64,000 nucleotides of DNA, taken from contig NZ_SULI01000011.1 of the NCBI RefSeq assembly GCF_005518135.1, forward strand, positions 1-64,000. The letters run 5' to 3'. This DNA comes from Shimia litoralis. Its GTDB lineage: Bacteria; Pseudomonadota; Alphaproteobacteria; Rhodobacterales; Rhodobacteraceae. Both the position numbers and the translations under genes were made by a program. Within the stretch, counting starts at the first letter, position 1; every line of letters begins with the position of its first letter. Below are positions 38,425 through 44,591 of the stretch, in pieces. The notes under the pieces are model-generated. The model worked only from the letters and a program-made list of their open reading frames with translations, had not been told where the DNA came from and searched no databases.

Positions 38425-39099
38425 TCAGGCGTCGTGCCAATCGACAATTTCGGAAAGTGGGGCGCGTTCCGTGCGGAACTGATTGGCCGGATGTACGTCG
38501 TCGCGATACCCGAATGAAATTGCGGCCAAGACCAGCCGATCCTCGGGAATCTGAAAATGCGCTTTGACGGTATCGGCATAGAACGCGATGGCGGCCTGTG
38601 GGATGGTTGCCACACCTTGCGCCTGCGCACTTAGGCAAAAGGCGGTGATATAACCGCCACAATCCAAGGCACCATATGGCCCGAGCTCGGCTGCGGTGGT
38701 GATGAGTGCGACGTGCGGCGCACCGAAAAATGCATAATTTTCACGCATTTGCGTCACGCGACCCTGTTTGTCGCCACGTCCGATACCGACGGCTTGGTAC
38801 AGTTGTAATCCACAGGTTTGACGCCGCTGTTTGCGCGGCCCCGAATACCCATCAGGAAAGGCAAAGTCCGGATTTGGAGCGCTGGTATCAAACGCATTCA
38901 GCATCGCGCTGCGGAACGCATCAGTGCCTGCGCCGGATGTAACCGTGACCTGCCAAGGTTGGGCGTTGCACCACGACGGCACGCGTCCTGCATCCGTTAA
39001 AATGGTTTCGATGGTGGTGCGGTCCACTGCGTCGGGCAGGAACCCGCGGCAAGAATGACGATCGGTCAGCAAATCTTGAAGAGCACTATGGGGGGTCAT
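38425..39099 (-). CDS. Nitroreductase family protein
   Basis: A 224-residue FMN-dependent nitroreductase. RHSCRGFLPD near the start and PSWCNAQPWQ near residue 43 are the FMN-binding marks; the C-terminal segment LAAISFGYRDD is also typical. It reduces nitro compounds, quinones or similar acceptors with NAD(P)H. It is convergent with the TetR gene with 29 bases between the stops and is probably not part of the betaine operon. Substrate unknown. Confidence 0.87.
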   Translation of the reverse strand: MTPHSALQDLLTDRHSCRGFLPDAVDRTTIETILTDAGRVPSWCNAQPWQVTVTSGAGTDAFRSAMLNAFDTSAPNPDFAFPDGYSGPRKQRRQTCGLQLYQAVGIGRGDKQGRVTQMRENYAFFGAPHVALITTAAELGPYGALDCGGYITAFCLSAQAQGVATIPQAAIAFYADTVKAHFQIPEDRLVLAAISFGYRDDVHPANQFRTERAPLSEIVDWHDA

Positions 39100-39108
39100 G
39101 AATTATTC

Positions 39109-40224
39109 TTATTGTGATTGGGAAATGAAGTATCCGATGATGCCAGCGGCCACCGCGCCGAACAAGACCGCAAAGGTGATTTTCCAGATAGACCAAGGTC
39201 TTTCGCCTTGTACGCGCCCGGTTTGGCCGTTCACTACAAAACGATAGGTCTTGCCGCGATATTTGTACGCCGCAAGCCAGACAGGCAGCAGGATGTGCTT
39301 GAATGTGATCTCGTTAACTTGAGTGGCTATTTTGTGAATTTGCTGGCGATCCCCGCCAATATCAAACCGGACGTCACGCTCGATAATGCGGTCCATATGG
39401 GCGCGGGCCTCGTCATAGCCATCTTCCAACGGAATGGTATAGGCTTCGGCGCGAAATCCGGCCAGATACTCGGGGCTATAGGGTTGGAGGTCGCCAAGAT
39501 TCCATGGCTGAAGCGCATCGGTATATGATTTTGGCAGCGCCCGAGAGGCCAGAATCAACACGTCATCGAAAAATCGTGCGACCCGTCCAGCGGCCGGTGA
39601 CCAGCGAATTTTTTGAACTTGGCGCTGTTGCGGTTTCCCATCCACCATCACCGTTTGGCTGACGTAATACACGGTGCCGCGTTGACCACTGTATTGGGAT
39701 TTGGTTTGGGCATCATACGTCCAAAACGGTACGTAAATCCCATGCATCTTGCGCCCCTTGCGCGCATAATCCCGAAGGCCATTCGGCGCGAACCAAAGCC
39801 GCCCAAGCCAGTCGTTCATTGCATCGTGTGCTTGGCGTTCAACAAGGGCAAACGGCAAAACCGCCCGTGGTTTGATGTGGCGGTGTGTGCCAGTGTCAGC
39901 CACTACAGGTGTCGCGCAAAACGGGCATTCAGCGGCATGTGTTGCAGGGTCAAATTCGACTTGTGCCGCACAGTTTGGGCAGGTTGAGACGCGTGTTTCT
40001 TCGATCTCGCCTGAGGGAAGTTGATTTTCAAGCGCGCTTTGAAAATCAAGCTCTTTGATCACGGGTTGGTGGGTTTCTTGCATTGCGGATGTGTGGCCAC
40101 AATGATCACACACCAAAGTTCCTGCCGTGGGATCAAATCGATAGTCTGCACCACACTGGGCGCACGGAAACCGATGAAGCTCCTTTGGGGCAGGTGGCGG
40201 CGTGGGGCTCTGTGACATCGACAT
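39109..40224 (-). CDS. TFIIB-type zinc-ribbon membrane protein (YdjG-like)
   Basis: A 371-residue protein with two CxxC zinc ribbons: C-x2-C then C-x2-C near 20-45, and C-x2-C then C-x2-C near 80-105. A long middle domain follows (HGIYVPFWTYDAQTKSQYSGQRG, then ITFKHILLPVWLAAYKYRGKTYRF), and a C-terminal transmembrane helix covers about 345-366. Bacillus YdjG, from the PspA-linked ydjFGHI operon, has a similar zinc-ribbon plan. The gene lies next to an SPFH-protein gene, as ydjG does with ydjI. Role: probably membrane-stress related. Confidence 0.75.
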   Translation of the reverse strand: MSMSQSPTPPPAPKELHRFPCAQCGADYRFDPTAGTLVCDHCGHTSAMQETHQPVIKELDFQSALENQLPSGEIEETRVSTCPNCAAQVEFDPATHAAECPFCATPVVADTGTHRHIKPRAVLPFALVERQAHDAMNDWLGRLWFAPNGLRDYARKGRKMHGIYVPFWTYDAQTKSQYSGQRGTVYYVSQTVMVDGKPQQRQVQKIRWSPAAGRVARFFDDVLILASRALPKSYTDALQPWNLGDLQPYSPEYLAGFRAEAYTIPLEDGYDEARAHMDRIIERDVRFDIGGDRQQIHKIATQVNEITFKHILLPVWLAAYKYRGKTYRFVVNGQTGRVQGERPWSIWKITFAVLFGAVAAGIIGYFISQSQ

Positions 40225-40312
40225 GGGCCTTGCGATAGAGGGTCTTGTAAAAGCCTCCGGAGGTCGGCCTATCCTGATCGCAGATAAACCGGAAACCCCA
40301 AAGGCTTAAGAG

Positions 40313-41443
40313 TTAGGCTCCGGGTGGCGGTGGAGGAAGAATGGTGAACAGTTGTGCAAGTTCTTGCACGTCTTCGGCTCGTTTCCATCCGTCCTGACCT
40401 GCGGTCCAAACATACGTGTCGCGCGTGATCTCGCCGCCTGTCGCCATGCGGCCAAGCGCAGCTTTGGAAAACGGGCCGCTGGTGACCCCATCTTGGGCGG
40501 TATGCCACACATGTTCCACGGGCGGGGGAGGTGGCGGGGCAGGGTGCGTGGCCGCAGGTGCCACAGATTGAGCAGGGCGCGCGCCCCACGGACCTTGGGC
40601 CATCTGCTGGGCCATGGCCATCCCCATTCCCATGCCAAGCCCTGCGCCCATACCCCCGCCACCATTTGGGTTTTGGGCTGCGGCAGTCATGGCCTCGGCG
40701 GCTGAATATTGGGTGAAACGCCCCAAATCGCCTGCGATGCCCATGGACGTGCGCTTGTCCATGGCCTCTTCGACGGCGGGTGGCAGCGAGATGTTTTCGA
40801 TATATAGCTCTGGCATCGTCAGGCCGTATTCGGCCAAAGTCCCTGAGATTTCTGCCGCAACCAACTTGCCCAAGTCGCCAGTGTTGGCGGCCATATCAAG
40901 CACCGGGATGCCCGAAGACGCCACAACGCGCGAAAATTCTTGCACAATGATGTTGCGGATCTGGAACGAAATTTCGTCCATGGTGAACTCACCATCTGTG
41001 CCGACGATTTCGGTGAGGAACCGCGCAGGGTCTGTGACACGGATCGAATAGGTGCCAAACGCCCGCAGTCGCACGGGACCAAATTCCGGATCACGACAGA
41101 TGATTGGGTTTTTCGTACCCCATTTAAGATCGTTAAACCGCGTCGTGTTGACGAAGTATATTTCGGATTTGAAGGGGGATTTGAACCCGTGATCCCAATG
41201 GTTCAGCGTTGTCAGAACCGGCATGTTGTTGGTCTCGAGCATATAAAGCCCGGGGGTAAACACATCTGCCAATTGACCTTCGTGGATAAAGACCGCGGAT
41301 TGACCTTCGCGTACCGTCAGTTTGGCGCCGTATTTGATTTCGTGGCCTTCACGCTCGAAACGCCAGACCATAGTGTCCCTTGTGTCATCAACCCAATGGA
41401 TAACATCAATGAATTCACCAGTCAGAAAATCGAAGATACCCAT
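40313..41443 (-). CDS. SPFH-domain protein with C-terminal GYF_2 domain (YdjI-like)
   Basis: A 376-residue protein. The N-terminal 240 residues form an SPFH / virion-core-like domain (EGQSAVFIHEGQLADVFTPGLYMLETNN). A Gly/Met-rich linker (about 255-285) and a Pro-rich linker precede a GYF_2 (DUF4339) domain at about 315-365 (WHTAQDGVTSGPFSKAAL). YdjI of Bacillus belongs to this family and is tied to PspA recruitment at membranes. GGAG lies 9 bases before the ATG. It is in tandem with the zinc-ribbon gene downstream and may be translated with it. Confidence 0.8.
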   Translation of the reverse strand: MGIFDFLTGEFIDVIHWVDDTRDTMVWRFEREGHEIKYGAKLTVREGQSAVFIHEGQLADVFTPGLYMLETNNMPVLTTLNHWDHGFKSPFKSEIYFVNTTRFNDLKWGTKNPIICRDPEFGPVRLRAFGTYSIRVTDPARFLTEIVGTDGEFTMDEISFQIRNIIVQEFSRVVASSGIPVLDMAANTGDLGKLVAAEISGTLAEYGLTMPELYIENISLPPAVEEAMDKRTSMGIAGDLGRFTQYSAAEAMTAAAQNPNGGGGMGAGLGMGMGMAMAQQMAQGPWGARPAQSVAPAATHPAPPPPPPVEHVWHTAQDGVTSGPFSKAALGRMATGGEITRDTYVWTAGQDGWKRAEDVQELAQLFTILPPPPPGA

Positions 41444-41464
41444 GAAACAGGTCTCCTTTCGGGG

Positions 41465-42388
41465 TCAGTATAAACGTCCAGCCTTTTCACGGGCCATTAT
41501 TTGAAAAATTGGCCGCGCCTGTTCCAGCGGCATACCAATCGACAGGCGAGGATCATACAGCATCGCCAACAGCGCCTCGTCGTGTGTGGTCAAAAGCGCA
41601 AATTCGTCGTCATCGTTAAATATGGATGGGCGCGCATCGGGGCTATCGTTGGCAAGGCCTAACCCCTGCGCAATTTCTTCGTGATAGCAGGATTTACGCA
41701 GTAAATCAGGATGTTCGGCACGTATCAGGGCGATGGCGCTTGTGACTTTGTTTTCGTTTTTATCATCCGAGAAGGCCACAACAAGGCAATGAATGCTGCG
41801 TGGCACATTGCGGAAAAGATTGAGCGTTGATGTGCTGGCACCTGGAATGATCTGTTTGACCTGTGCAGACAGCGCCGCCTGATCATCCAACCCCATGACC
41901 AATACATGGAAATTGGCACGCGATTGGCTGGCTGTGATTGGATGGCCGGTGACAGACGCCAAGCGCCCGAGATATCCGTTGACCAAAGCACGGTCTGCAG
42001 TTTGCACCGTGTCGGGGACCGAGGGGCCAAAACGCATGCTCACACGAATAGGCGCCGTCCAGCGGCGTAACTGGCCCGCGCGCCCACTTGAGCGCCGCAA
42101 GCCGCCACCGCGCGCATATTCGTCGTAAAAGGCAATACGTTCAAAGTTTTTGGCAAGCATGTCCGCCGTATACGGCGTGTCAGGCCCGCCACCATCCGTG
42201 CGCAGCAACCCGCGCGCCAACAAATCGGCTTGGACGTGCGCATAATGGCGTCTCAGGTTTTCACTATCTTGTGACGGTGCGGTTGGCGCCGGACGCACGG
42301 TCGCCTGCGGAGTCTTGCCCGGAGACAAGCCATCGCAGGCAGCCAAAGCCGCCAGCGCGCAAGTCAGGGCAAGAGTTCTGAACGGCAT
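41465..42388 (-). CDS. DUF2927 lipoprotein
   Basis: About 307 residues. A signal peptide with a lipobox (ALAAC) places Cys at about residue 18, so a lipoprotein anchored in the envelope. The rest matches DUF2927, with a VSMRFGPSVP segment and a protease-like HEE motif (CYHEEIAQGLGL), often seen in these putative metalloprotease-like proteins. A TTG codon just before the ATG is the only longer start. It lies 21 bases after the SPFH gene start on the same strand direction and 6 bases before the TelA-type gene's end, hence one operon. Confidence 0.78.
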   Translation of the reverse strand: MPFRTLALTCALAALAACDGLSPGKTPQATVRPAPTAPSQDSENLRRHYAHVQADLLARGLLRTDGGGPDTPYTADMLAKNFERIAFYDEYARGGGLRRSSGRAGQLRRWTAPIRVSMRFGPSVPDTVQTADRALVNGYLGRLASVTGHPITASQSRANFHVLVMGLDDQAALSAQVKQIIPGASTSTLNLFRNVPRSIHCLVVAFSDDKNENKVTSAIALIRAEHPDLLRKSCYHEEIAQGLGLANDSPDARPSIFNDDDEFALLTTHDEALLAMLYDPRLSIGMPLEQARPIFQIMAREKAGRLY

Positions 42389-42397
42389 CAAGAAAGA

Positions 42398-43597
42398 TCA
42401 GGCTCCGGGTACAGAGGTCGAGGTTGTGTCCCCAAGACCTGTTGTCTTGGCTTTGGCAGACGCCAGCGTGTCGCGCAACTCGTTTTCCATCACTTTGAGG
42501 TCTTCTTCGGCGGCTGCGCGCTTGGCCTTGCCTTCGTCTGCGATCTGAAGGCTTTCCTGAATTGTGCCTATCAAATCTGCATTGGCTTGTTTCACGGCTT
42601 CGATGTCGAAGACACCGCGCTCCATTTCTTCGCGGATCAGCTTGTTGGACTGACGCAGGTTGCTTGCATTGGACGTCAGAAGTTCATTGGTCAAATCATT
42701 GGCTTCGCGCACTGCGGCGGCGGCTTCTGCGGACCGTTGAATGGTGACGGCTTGGGCCAGTTGTGTTTCCCAAAGCGGCACTGTGTTGACCAGTGTCGAG
42801 TTGATTTTGGTCACCAGAGATTTGTCATTTTCCTGTACCAAACGAATGGACGGCAACGATTGCATCGTGACCTGTCGTGTCAGCTTAAGATCATGTACGC
42901 GGCGCTCAAGGTCATCGCGGGCAGCGCGTAGATCGCGCAGTTCTTGTGCCACCATGACTTGATCGGTCTCGTTGGCAGCTTGAACGGCGGCTTCTTTTTC
43001 GGGGATATCCGTGCTGTCCAGCTCGGCAATTTTGGCTTCACCCGCCGCAATATAAAGAGCCAGCTCGTCGTAAAAGTTGAGCGTGCGATCATACAGCATA
43101 TCCAGCGACTTGATATCTTTGAGCAGCGTATGTTCGTGCGTCAACAGATTGTCTGTAATCTTGTCAATCTGTCCTTGAACCTCTTCAAAGCGGGCGGTGA
43201 ATTTAGCAAATGGGGCCGCCCGTCCGATCAGTTTTTCCCAGAACGAACGTTCGCGTCGCACATCGAGTTCGTTCACAGAAAAACCGCGGATCGTGGTCAC
43301 AATGCTGCGCAAGCTATCTCCTGCAGGGCCCACGTCTTTGTTCCGGACATCGGCCAGCATCGCCTGACTGATTTCCTGAAGCTCGGCTTGGGCGCCTGAT
43401 CCAAAGGCCACGATTGACGTGGTGTTGGTCATGTCCAGTTCAGCCATGCGTTTTGTGATTTCTTCACTTAACGGCGCATCGGCGTCTTGCAATGACACAA
43501 CGGCCCCTGCGTCGGTTGGCTCGGGCAGCACAACCGCCGTGATCTCATCGACCTGAGCAAGGGTGGCTTGGGCTTTTTGACGTACAGTGTCAGACAT
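42398..43597 (-). CDS. TelA family toxic anion resistance protein
   Basis: A 399-residue, almost entirely helical protein of the TelA / YceH (toxic anion resistance) family, with coiled coils at about 140-190, 200-245 and 275-385. The motifs SFWEKLIGR and NTVPLWETQLAQA are typical. It lacks membrane segments. It lies next to the XpaC-like gene, the classic xpaC-telA (xpaC-yceH) pairing. Members are linked to tellurite and envelope stress resistance; the exact action is unknown. Confidence 0.88.
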   Translation of the reverse strand: MSDTVRQKAQATLAQVDEITAVVLPEPTDAGAVVSLQDADAPLSEEITKRMAELDMTNTTSIVAFGSGAQAELQEISQAMLADVRNKDVGPAGDSLRSIVTTIRGFSVNELDVRRERSFWEKLIGRAAPFAKFTARFEEVQGQIDKITDNLLTHEHTLLKDIKSLDMLYDRTLNFYDELALYIAAGEAKIAELDSTDIPEKEAAVQAANETDQVMVAQELRDLRAARDDLERRVHDLKLTRQVTMQSLPSIRLVQENDKSLVTKINSTLVNTVPLWETQLAQAVTIQRSAEAAAAVREANDLTNELLTSNASNLRQSNKLIREEMERGVFDIEAVKQANADLIGTIQESLQIADEGKAKRAAAEEDLKVMENELRDTLASAKAKTTGLGDTTSTSVPGA

Positions 43598-43614
43598 TGA
43601 ATTTACCTCTTGGG

Positions 43615-44508
43615 CTAGTGTGCGTCACTGCGGACGCCCTCGCGCTGCAGTCGTTCACGCAGCACTTCGATTTCGATTGTCAGGTCGCTCTTGTCATCCA
43701 GCAACAGTTTTTGCGTTCGCGCGGCAAAGTTCTGTTCCAGATCATTGAGCAGCGCTTCATAGTCTGTTCTGGCTTGGGCGTCGCGATTACGTGCATAAAT
43801 GTCCGAAAACTTGATCGTCGCATCACGTGCGCCCATCAAATAGACACTCAAATACTTTCTAGCGGCGGTCAAATCTCTGGGATCGTCTTCAATGGTTCGA
43901 AACAGCTGGCGTACGGTGGTTTGAAAATGCGCCACCCGCGTTTCGAGCGCGCGATCACCTGACCGCATGATGGCATCGCTCATGGCGGCCAAATGGGTTT
44001 CGGCCTCGTCGACGGCGCGTGCAACGCGATCATTCTGGAACTGGTCGACGCCTTCGAGGCCCTTGTCCGAAAGCGGATCAAGCCCAAACGCGAAGCCGTG
44101 CAGAGCCGACCCGATCACACCGTAAATTGCTGCCTCTGGAACTCCCGCACCAGACGCCCATCCCGCAAGCGCCAAGCCGATGCCCGTTAAGAACGATCCG
44201 GCAATTTTGCGCGGAAAAACAGGGCGACGTGCCACTTTGCGTGCGTCATAGGCTTCTTGTGCCAAAAGGCCTTCTCTGGTGAGCCATGCGGCACATATCA
44301 GTATCGCCAGAGCGCCAAGATTTAGGCCAAGCGCCACTGGACCGTTGCCAAATGCCTGCCAAATAAGGGGCAGAGGCGCGATAAACAGCATATTGATGCG
44401 CCCGCCCACGCGGCTGCGCTTGGCGTTTTGAAACGTGCCTGATGGTTGAAGCGGCTCCGAACTTGCGTGGCTGTCGGGGCTGAATTTTCCGCCAAATTTC
44501 TGCGCCAT
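43615..44508 (-). CDS. XpaC-like 5-bromo-4-chloroindolyl phosphate hydrolysis family membrane protein
   Basis: A 297-residue protein with membrane segments in the first half (about 38-80 and 105-145) and a helical C-terminal half ending DKSDLTIEIEVLRERL. The name comes from the Bacillus xpaC phenotype and does not prove a hydrolase. The ATG at 44508 follows GGGGG and overlaps the stop of the 27-residue peptide gene (TAATG). Partner of the TelA gene downstream. Probable inner-membrane anchor for TelA; this is inference from gene pairing. Confidence 0.75.
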   Translation of the reverse strand: MAQKFGGKFSPDSHASSEPLQPSGTFQNAKRSRVGGRINMLFIAPLPLIWQAFGNGPVALGLNLGALAILICAAWLTREGLLAQEAYDARKVARRPVFPRKIAGSFLTGIGLALAGWASGAGVPEAAIYGVIGSALHGFAFGLDPLSDKGLEGVDQFQNDRVARAVDEAETHLAAMSDAIMRSGDRALETRVAHFQTTVRQLFRTIEDDPRDLTAARKYLSVYLMGARDATIKFSDIYARNRDAQARTDYEALLNDLEQNFAARTQKLLLDDKSDLTIEIEVLRERLQREGVRSDAH

Positions 44509-44591
44509 TACACGCCCCCTGCAATGGAGACATAAAAGATCAATATCACAAGCAATACAAATGCCAGTTTTTGTAACCCAGTGCCGGACAT
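44508..44591 (-). CDS. 27-residue single-pass membrane peptide ahead of the XpaC-like gene
   Basis: A short frame begins ATG at 44591 with MSGTGLQKL and continues as an unbroken hydrophobic stretch (AFVLLVILIFYVSIAGGV). The stop TAA overlaps the XpaC-like ATG as TAATG, so the two would be translationally coupled. A GGGGG stretch lies 11 bases before the start. Its size, single predicted helix and tight coupling suggest a membrane micropeptide that assists the XpaC/TelA complex. No homolog search was possible. Confidence 0.55.
   Translation of the reverse strand: MSGTGLQKLAFVLLVILIFYVSIAGGV

Follow-up and report, generated by a model that had tools for sequence, protein, structure and literature searches.

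In Bacillus, delivery of PspA to the membrane needs the SPFH protein YdjI along with YdjG and YdjH (PMC8581546), and a survey of phage shock protein (PSP) systems finds SPFH and zinc-ribbon proteins with PspA in Bacillota and mentions neither TelA nor XpaC (PMC11237479). TelA is also unmentioned in a second PSP survey (PMC9239133). In Listeria an XpaC-TelA operon (lmo1966-1967) belongs to the LiaSR envelope-stress regulon and is raised on exposure to garvicin KS; a mutant in its telA gene (lmo1967) shows a 4-fold increase in sensitivity to nisin and a 2-fold increase to tellurite (PMC12791056). Both lmo1966 and lmo1967 were identified as nisin-resistance genes (PMC8865564). Here we analyse a locus of Shimia litoralis that holds relatives of both sets side by side, at positions 44591 to 39109 on the minus strand of a 64,000-nucleotide stretch (the window) taken from a 3.57-Mb, 100%-complete genome in 84 contigs. 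TelA and XpaC are widespread families whose mechanism is, to our knowledge, not known. The set of a membrane peptide, XpaC, TelA, a GYF-containing SPFH protein and a zinc-ribbon protein is inherited or transferred together as a unit in at least two phyla. A preliminary description of the window knew of no report of the full set as one system, and our full-text searches, which did not reach subscription papers such as the primary telA reports, found none either.

Layout and conservation of the operon

The locus comprises seven minus-strand genes which read, from 5' to 3', membrane peptide, XpaC, TelA, DUF2927 lipoprotein, SPFH protein with GYF_2, zinc-ribbon protein and nitroreductase. The operon's first gene encodes a single-span membrane peptide of 27 aa (MSGTGLQKLAFVLLVILIFYVSIAGGV; 44591..44508), whose stop codon overlaps the next start in the sequence TAATG. 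It is followed by an XpaC-like protein of 297 aa (44508..43615; PF10112, E=7e-25), predicted to have a hydrophobic hairpin at its N-terminus and a helical cytosolic domain after it, and by TelA, a soluble protein of 399 aa (43597..42398; PF05816, E=1e-105). The DUF2927 lipoprotein starts at 42391 (TTG) or 42388 (ATG) and ends at 41465 (PF11150, E=1.2e-59; lipobox LAAC). Next come the SPFH (Band_7_1) protein (41443..40313; PF13421, E=1.4e-101; GYF_2, E=1.1e-19) and a YdjG-like double zinc-ribbon protein of 371 aa (40224..39109), with four CxxC motifs at residues 21, 39, 82 and 100 and one C-terminal transmembrane (TM) helix. Intergenic gaps along the operon are -1, 17, 6-9, 21, 88 (before the zinc-ribbon gene) and 9 nt (before the nitroreductase gene). 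Predicted topology puts hydrophobic membrane segments in the peptide, XpaC and the zinc-ribbon protein and none in TelA or the SPFH protein.

Among same-family genomes, sampled at one per genus, 65 of 73 carry a full TelA protein. We read 57 Rhodobacteraceae loci over about 17 kb each, and XpaC, TelA, DUF2927, SPFH and zinc-ribbon genes were all present, collinear and on a single strand in 51 of them, which is far beyond chance. The co-conservation on which the preliminary description had staked its single gene set is thus borne out, and it reaches further than was thought, with the core found in Gammaproteobacteria and Campylobacterota as well. RluB and TadA are the usual upstream neighbours in Rhodobacteraceae. 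At a number of loci (L031, L035, L036, L044, L045, L061, L079, L086) a gene named by eye as cytochrome b561-like recurs between the SPFH and zinc-ribbon genes. At L205 (Paracoccus caeni) TelA and DUF2927 are present and XpaC and SPFH were not found in the flanks, which may mean that Paracoccus has lost part of the operon.

In a sample of the phylum TelA is sparse (45/299 genomes above the cut-off), and about 35 of the 299 genomes have a strong match (E < 1e-70) to the YdjI-type SPFH protein. Beyond the family we used 80 named loci, obtained by a contig scan with a TelA alignment headed by the protein of L091, a 2.0-Mb Pseudomonadota genome with a Pfam-checked XpaC-TelA-(SPFH+GYF) arrangement. 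Genes were called with local profile models made from Rhodobacteraceae proteins, and the rates, coming from loci picked by TelA similarity, apply inside one TelA clade and not to all TelA proteins. XpaC lies directly upstream of TelA in 34/37 testable loci of Gammaproteobacteria, 7/7 of other Alphaproteobacteria, 7/7 of Campylobacterota and 22/23 of Rhodobacterales; overall, a PF10112 gene is followed directly by a PF05816 gene in 70 of the 74 testable loci, as it is in Shimia. SPFH and zinc-ribbon genes follow downstream in 16/30, 5/6, 4/5 and 12/15 testable loci of the same four groups. The arrangement XpaC-TelA-SPFH-zinc ribbon, with order and strand kept, was seen in Granulosicoccaceae, Methylomonas, Thiothrix, Sedimenticola, Geminicoccaceae, Campylobacteraceae, Sulfurovum and Rhodobacterales, and XpaC-TelA-SPFH in Competibacteraceae and in an Odyssella-like metagenome-assembled genome, where the contig edge ends it. 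DUF2927 occurred in the named loci of Rhodobacterales only and is an addition of that order outside the wider core. Trees of the four proteins XpaC, TelA, SPFH and zinc ribbon from 40 loci were congruent (pairwise distance correlation r 0.84-0.88) and all four recovered the Rhodobacterales and the Campylobacterota splits, the pattern that joint inheritance or transfer of the unit would give. Loci L115-L120 show another SPFH/zinc-ribbon arrangement, in which the SPFH C-termini differ and GYF is lacking; the neighbours at L116 resemble spermidine synthase, AdoMet decarboxylase and DUF350, reminiscent of polyamine-linked operons reported near PspA.

The seventh gene encodes a nitroreductase-family protein (39099..38425, minus strand) and starts 9 nt past the zinc-ribbon gene. 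Only 11 of the 57 Rhodobacteraceae loci have it nearby, and it is therefore accessory to the operon. It had been left out of the preliminary description, whose other genes and coordinates are all present as given there. No RNA elements were found, and a repeat search returned only short, chance-like pairs.

Membrane peptide, SPFH tail and DUF2927 lipoprotein

Under a loose rule, roughly 47 out of 56 Rhodobacteraceae loci have a short hydrophobic open reading frame ahead of XpaC, and it is also present in Gammaproteobacteria (MPKPIQRVIGFFILLATVGMVSCQALFT at L138, for example) and Campylobacterota (MQKIFGFLFILLSSGISVWYPLLKLF at L169, for example). Under a strict rule (20-40 aa, a Shine-Dalgarno-like motif, one TM segment and a stop near the next start) the peptide flagged in the preliminary description preceded XpaC at 47 of 68 named loci, compared with 0/194 positions before TelA, DUF2927, SPFH or zinc-ribbon genes and 19/1540 random positions. 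Among 21 gap-free 27-aa versions the median pN was 0.33 and the median pS 0.67, with pN below pS in 96% of pairs. Judged by its sequence, the membrane peptide is thus very probably a real, conserved coding gene, of a size (25-30 residues) that gene callers could easily miss.

The SPFH protein has a Gly/Met-rich segment, a proline stretch, the GYF_2 domain and a C-terminal PPPPPGA tail. A search of solved structures by sequence matched its GYF domain alone (gliding protein, E 0.004) and found no relatives of TelA, XpaC, the zinc-ribbon protein or DUF2927. A proline tail after GYF_2 (PPPPPGA, PPPLP or similar) ends all operon SPFH proteins but that of L159, and most have a second proline stretch ahead of the domain. 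In 117 proteins, with GYF scored by sequence pattern, the tail was present in 105 of 106 SPFH proteins with GYF versus none of 11 without it (p = 1e-14, a value that makes the link look stronger than it is, since the sequences are related). GYF domains are proline-binding modules, leading us to infer that SPFH subunits bind one another's proline tails through them; domain and tail together would provide a possible self-assembly rule for SPFH proteins.

The DUF2927 lipoprotein gave a confident AlphaFold2 model (mean predicted local distance difference test score, pLDDT, 86; predicted template modelling score 0.83). All 50 VIA-align matches listed were matrix metalloproteases or karilysin, with Z of 9.7-10.5 over about 150 residues at about 3 Angstrom, where the typical best chance Z is 7-8 for models lacking a clear match. 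Matrix metalloproteases also ranked first in Foldseek (best E 0.026). By hhalign the match to bacterial M10 proteases was not significant (probability 2.7%); in the alignment, however, the active-site register agrees, with E239 lining up with the catalytic Glu, and Q242 and N248 with the second and third zinc His. The motif at the active-site position, EExxQxxGxxND, is invariant in 26 sequences, and HExxHxxGxxH was not found in 18 DUF2927 homologues from other families or paralogous loci. Modelling thus suggests for DUF2927 a probable matrixin fold that lacks the classical zinc site. The family thereby gains a likely fold, and the whole DUF2927 Pfam family may consist of such pseudo-matrixins. 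An active metalloprotease is disfavoured, the zinc His being replaced by invariant Glu, Gln or Asn. We also rejected the idea that DUF2927 is specific to the operon, as it occurs more widely in the phylum and the Shimia genome holds a second copy at G000:C2:27240-27839. Tandem DUF2927 genes (two or three copies) follow TelA in L174, L181 and L185 and precede SPFH in L174 and L181.

Absence of PspA and possible function

A profile search of the complete genome for PspA (PF04012) gave no match, with 9 of 14 control genomes positive, nor was a YdjH-like TPM protein (PF04536) found by profile search of the genome. None of the 80 named loci contained PspA. A PspA-like match was seen in 15 of 73 Rhodobacteraceae, weakly so (about 60-90 bits where above the cut-off), and no homologues of TelA, XpaC, SPFH or zinc-ribbon proteins were found near four of these Rhodobacteraceae genes. 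The absence of PspA therefore holds for the genome and for every locus seen, as the preliminary description had put it for this locus, but operon carriers are not strictly PspA-negative. Since about a dozen TelA-carrying Rhodobacteraceae have a weakly PspA-like protein elsewhere, TelA is no simple one-for-one replacement of PspA. At L216 and L218 the rare Rhodobacteraceae PspA-like gene is followed by a small membrane protein (about 92 aa) that has no relation to the SPFH-TelA operon.

The literature bears on the two halves of the operon one at a time, and a function at this locus is drawn by analogy. Their union in one operon suggests TelA and XpaC, in place of PspA, as the partners of the SPFH scaffold, and we put at about even the chance that the locus codes for an envelope-stress scaffold independent of PspA and lying on the inner face of the cytoplasmic membrane. 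In such a scaffold the peptide, XpaC and the zinc-ribbon protein would form a membrane anchor that recruits the soluble SPFH oligomer, much as YdjG and YdjH recruit YdjI in Bacillus, and GYF-proline-tail contacts would cross-link the SPFH subunits. TelA, long and helical, would be delivered to damaged membrane in the role that PspA has in Bacillus. Rhodobacterales would add a lipoprotein that faces the periplasm and has an altered metalloprotease fold, perhaps a sensor or binding subunit. Such a scaffold would be expected to make cells tolerant of membrane-active peptides, wall antibiotics and tellurite. More tentatively, and with a probability we place somewhat short of even, this would be a distinct, so far unnamed envelope-stress machine of Pseudomonadota and Campylobacterota, with an SPFH lattice zipped by contacts between GYF and proline tails and anchored by the 25-30-residue peptide, XpaC and the zinc ribbon, TelA as its helical effector where PspA would otherwise act, and, in Rhodobacterales, a pseudo-matrixin lipoprotein on the side of the periplasm.

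Several observations weigh against such a scaffold. In distant Pseudomonadota loci TelA often occurs without SPFH, and the SPFH-zinc-ribbon pair occurs with neither TelA nor PspA alongside; because each pair is found separately there, the XpaC-TelA and SPFH-zinc-ribbon halves can work apart. The whole set is present in only 16 of 30 testable gammaproteobacterial loci, and metagenome bins supply most of the examples from Gammaproteobacteria and all of those from Campylobacterota. Most Rhodobacteraceae with a PspA-like match also carry TelA. A sigma-70 promoter scan gave no match, the scan being uninformative in this organism. Finally, an ESCRT-III/PspA fold for TelA is unsupported, its structural matches being unspecific.

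The family name of TelA points to another function, namely a tellurite or oxyanion resistance operon in which TelA and its partners handle toxic oxyanions, the nitroreductase reduces them and the SPFH protein is secondary. Indeed one review counts R. sphaeroides telA among the chromosomal determinants of tellurite resistance (PMC6955997), lower abundance of ORF53, TelA, TelB and TelC accompanies tellurite sensitivity in Lactococcus (PMC13109727), and a nitroreductase gene lies immediately downstream of the zinc-ribbon gene here. However, that gene is adjacent in few relatives, the conserved core has no transporter or known reductase, and the Listeria telA mutation affected nisin sensitivity more than tellurite sensitivity (4-fold and 2-fold, respectively; PMC12791056). 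The unit also appears widespread in lineages lacking obvious tellurite exposure, and we consider a primarily oxyanion-related role unlikely.

Somewhat harder to uphold is a neighbourhood kept for genomic reasons alone, in which the two pairs would have no joint function. The separate occurrence of each pair in other lineages would fit this, as would RluB and TadA, which are also kept beside the Rhodobacteraceae locus. Yet four genes and a peptide keep their order and strand in two phyla amid different flanks, and the gene trees agree; coincidence of this kind seems to us a rather poor explanation.

If TelA were instead a distant structural homologue of PspA/ESCRT-III proteins, the locus would be a true PspA system with a diverged PspA, sharing its SPFH and zinc-ribbon partners with the Bacillus pspA-ydjGHI operon. 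The AlphaFold2 model of TelA, with a mean pLDDT of only 72, shows a helical protein in which residues 127-207 and 210-315 form a long hairpin, the general shape of PspA. Its fold matches were not significant (Foldseek E > 0.004; VIA-align Z of at most 11.4, below the meaningful level for long helices), and those listed were a mixture of long-helix proteins such as alpha-pore toxins, BAR domains and axonemal coiled coils. The PspA family was absent among the matches listed, an absence that is not proof in itself, and TelA matches PF05816, not PF04012; we judge such homology improbable. An anti-phage defence module is more improbable still: SPFH and zinc-ribbon proteins do occur in some defence-related contexts, but PADLOC gave no convincing match (one weak zinc-ribbon match, E 0.003), and the locus is near-universal, single-copy and collinear in its bacterial family, defence systems being patchy.

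If the distinct envelope-stress machine proposed above were real, TelA and XpaC, which have long carried the names 'tellurite resistance' and 'phosphate hydrolysis', would gain a membrane-scaffold function. Their joint operon with SPFH and zinc-ribbon proteins offers a testable hypothesis, in which TelA serves an SPFH scaffold as client or effector in the manner of PspA. Rhodobacteraceae are easy to engineer, so its steps are checkable by single deletions.

Comparison with known systems

The closest parallel is the pspA-ydjGHI operon of B. subtilis. Both loci place a Band_7_1 SPFH protein (PF13421, with B. subtilis among the positive controls) beside a double-zinc-ribbon TM protein, and the preliminary assignment of these two proteins to the YdjI and YdjG kind agrees with the PF13421 match and with the four CxxC motifs and C-terminal TM helix by which the zinc-ribbon protein is likened to YdjG. 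In both the soluble SPFH protein presumably needs membrane partners. In contrast to B. subtilis, the Shimia genome encodes neither PspA nor a YdjH/TPM protein; in their place the locus has XpaC, TelA and a membrane peptide. A zinc ribbon is described at the end of the Bacillus SPFH protein (PMC11237479), whereas the protein here ends in GYF_2 and a proline tail.

With the XpaC-TelA (YaaN) operon of Bacillus and Listeria the locus shares XpaC directly followed by TelA, from the same Pfam families; that operon is described as having two genes, to which SPFH, zinc ribbon and peptide are added here. In DUF2927 the predicted fold and the register of the active-site helix are those of matrix metalloproteases (M10), with their HExxHxxGxxH changed to EExxQxxGxxND. 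The R. sphaeroides telA locus has the TelA family in common with ours, although the tellurite review names telA alone (PMC6955997). Because a Cereibacter genome (L201) carries the full five-gene set, the R. sphaeroides telA is probably the TelA gene of the operon described here. The kilA/telAB genes of RK2 likewise share the TelA family; they are plasmid-borne and are not known to be accompanied by SPFH or zinc-ribbon genes. Taken together, the large parts of the operon all come from known families, and it is their combination across phyla, with the membrane peptide, that appears new.

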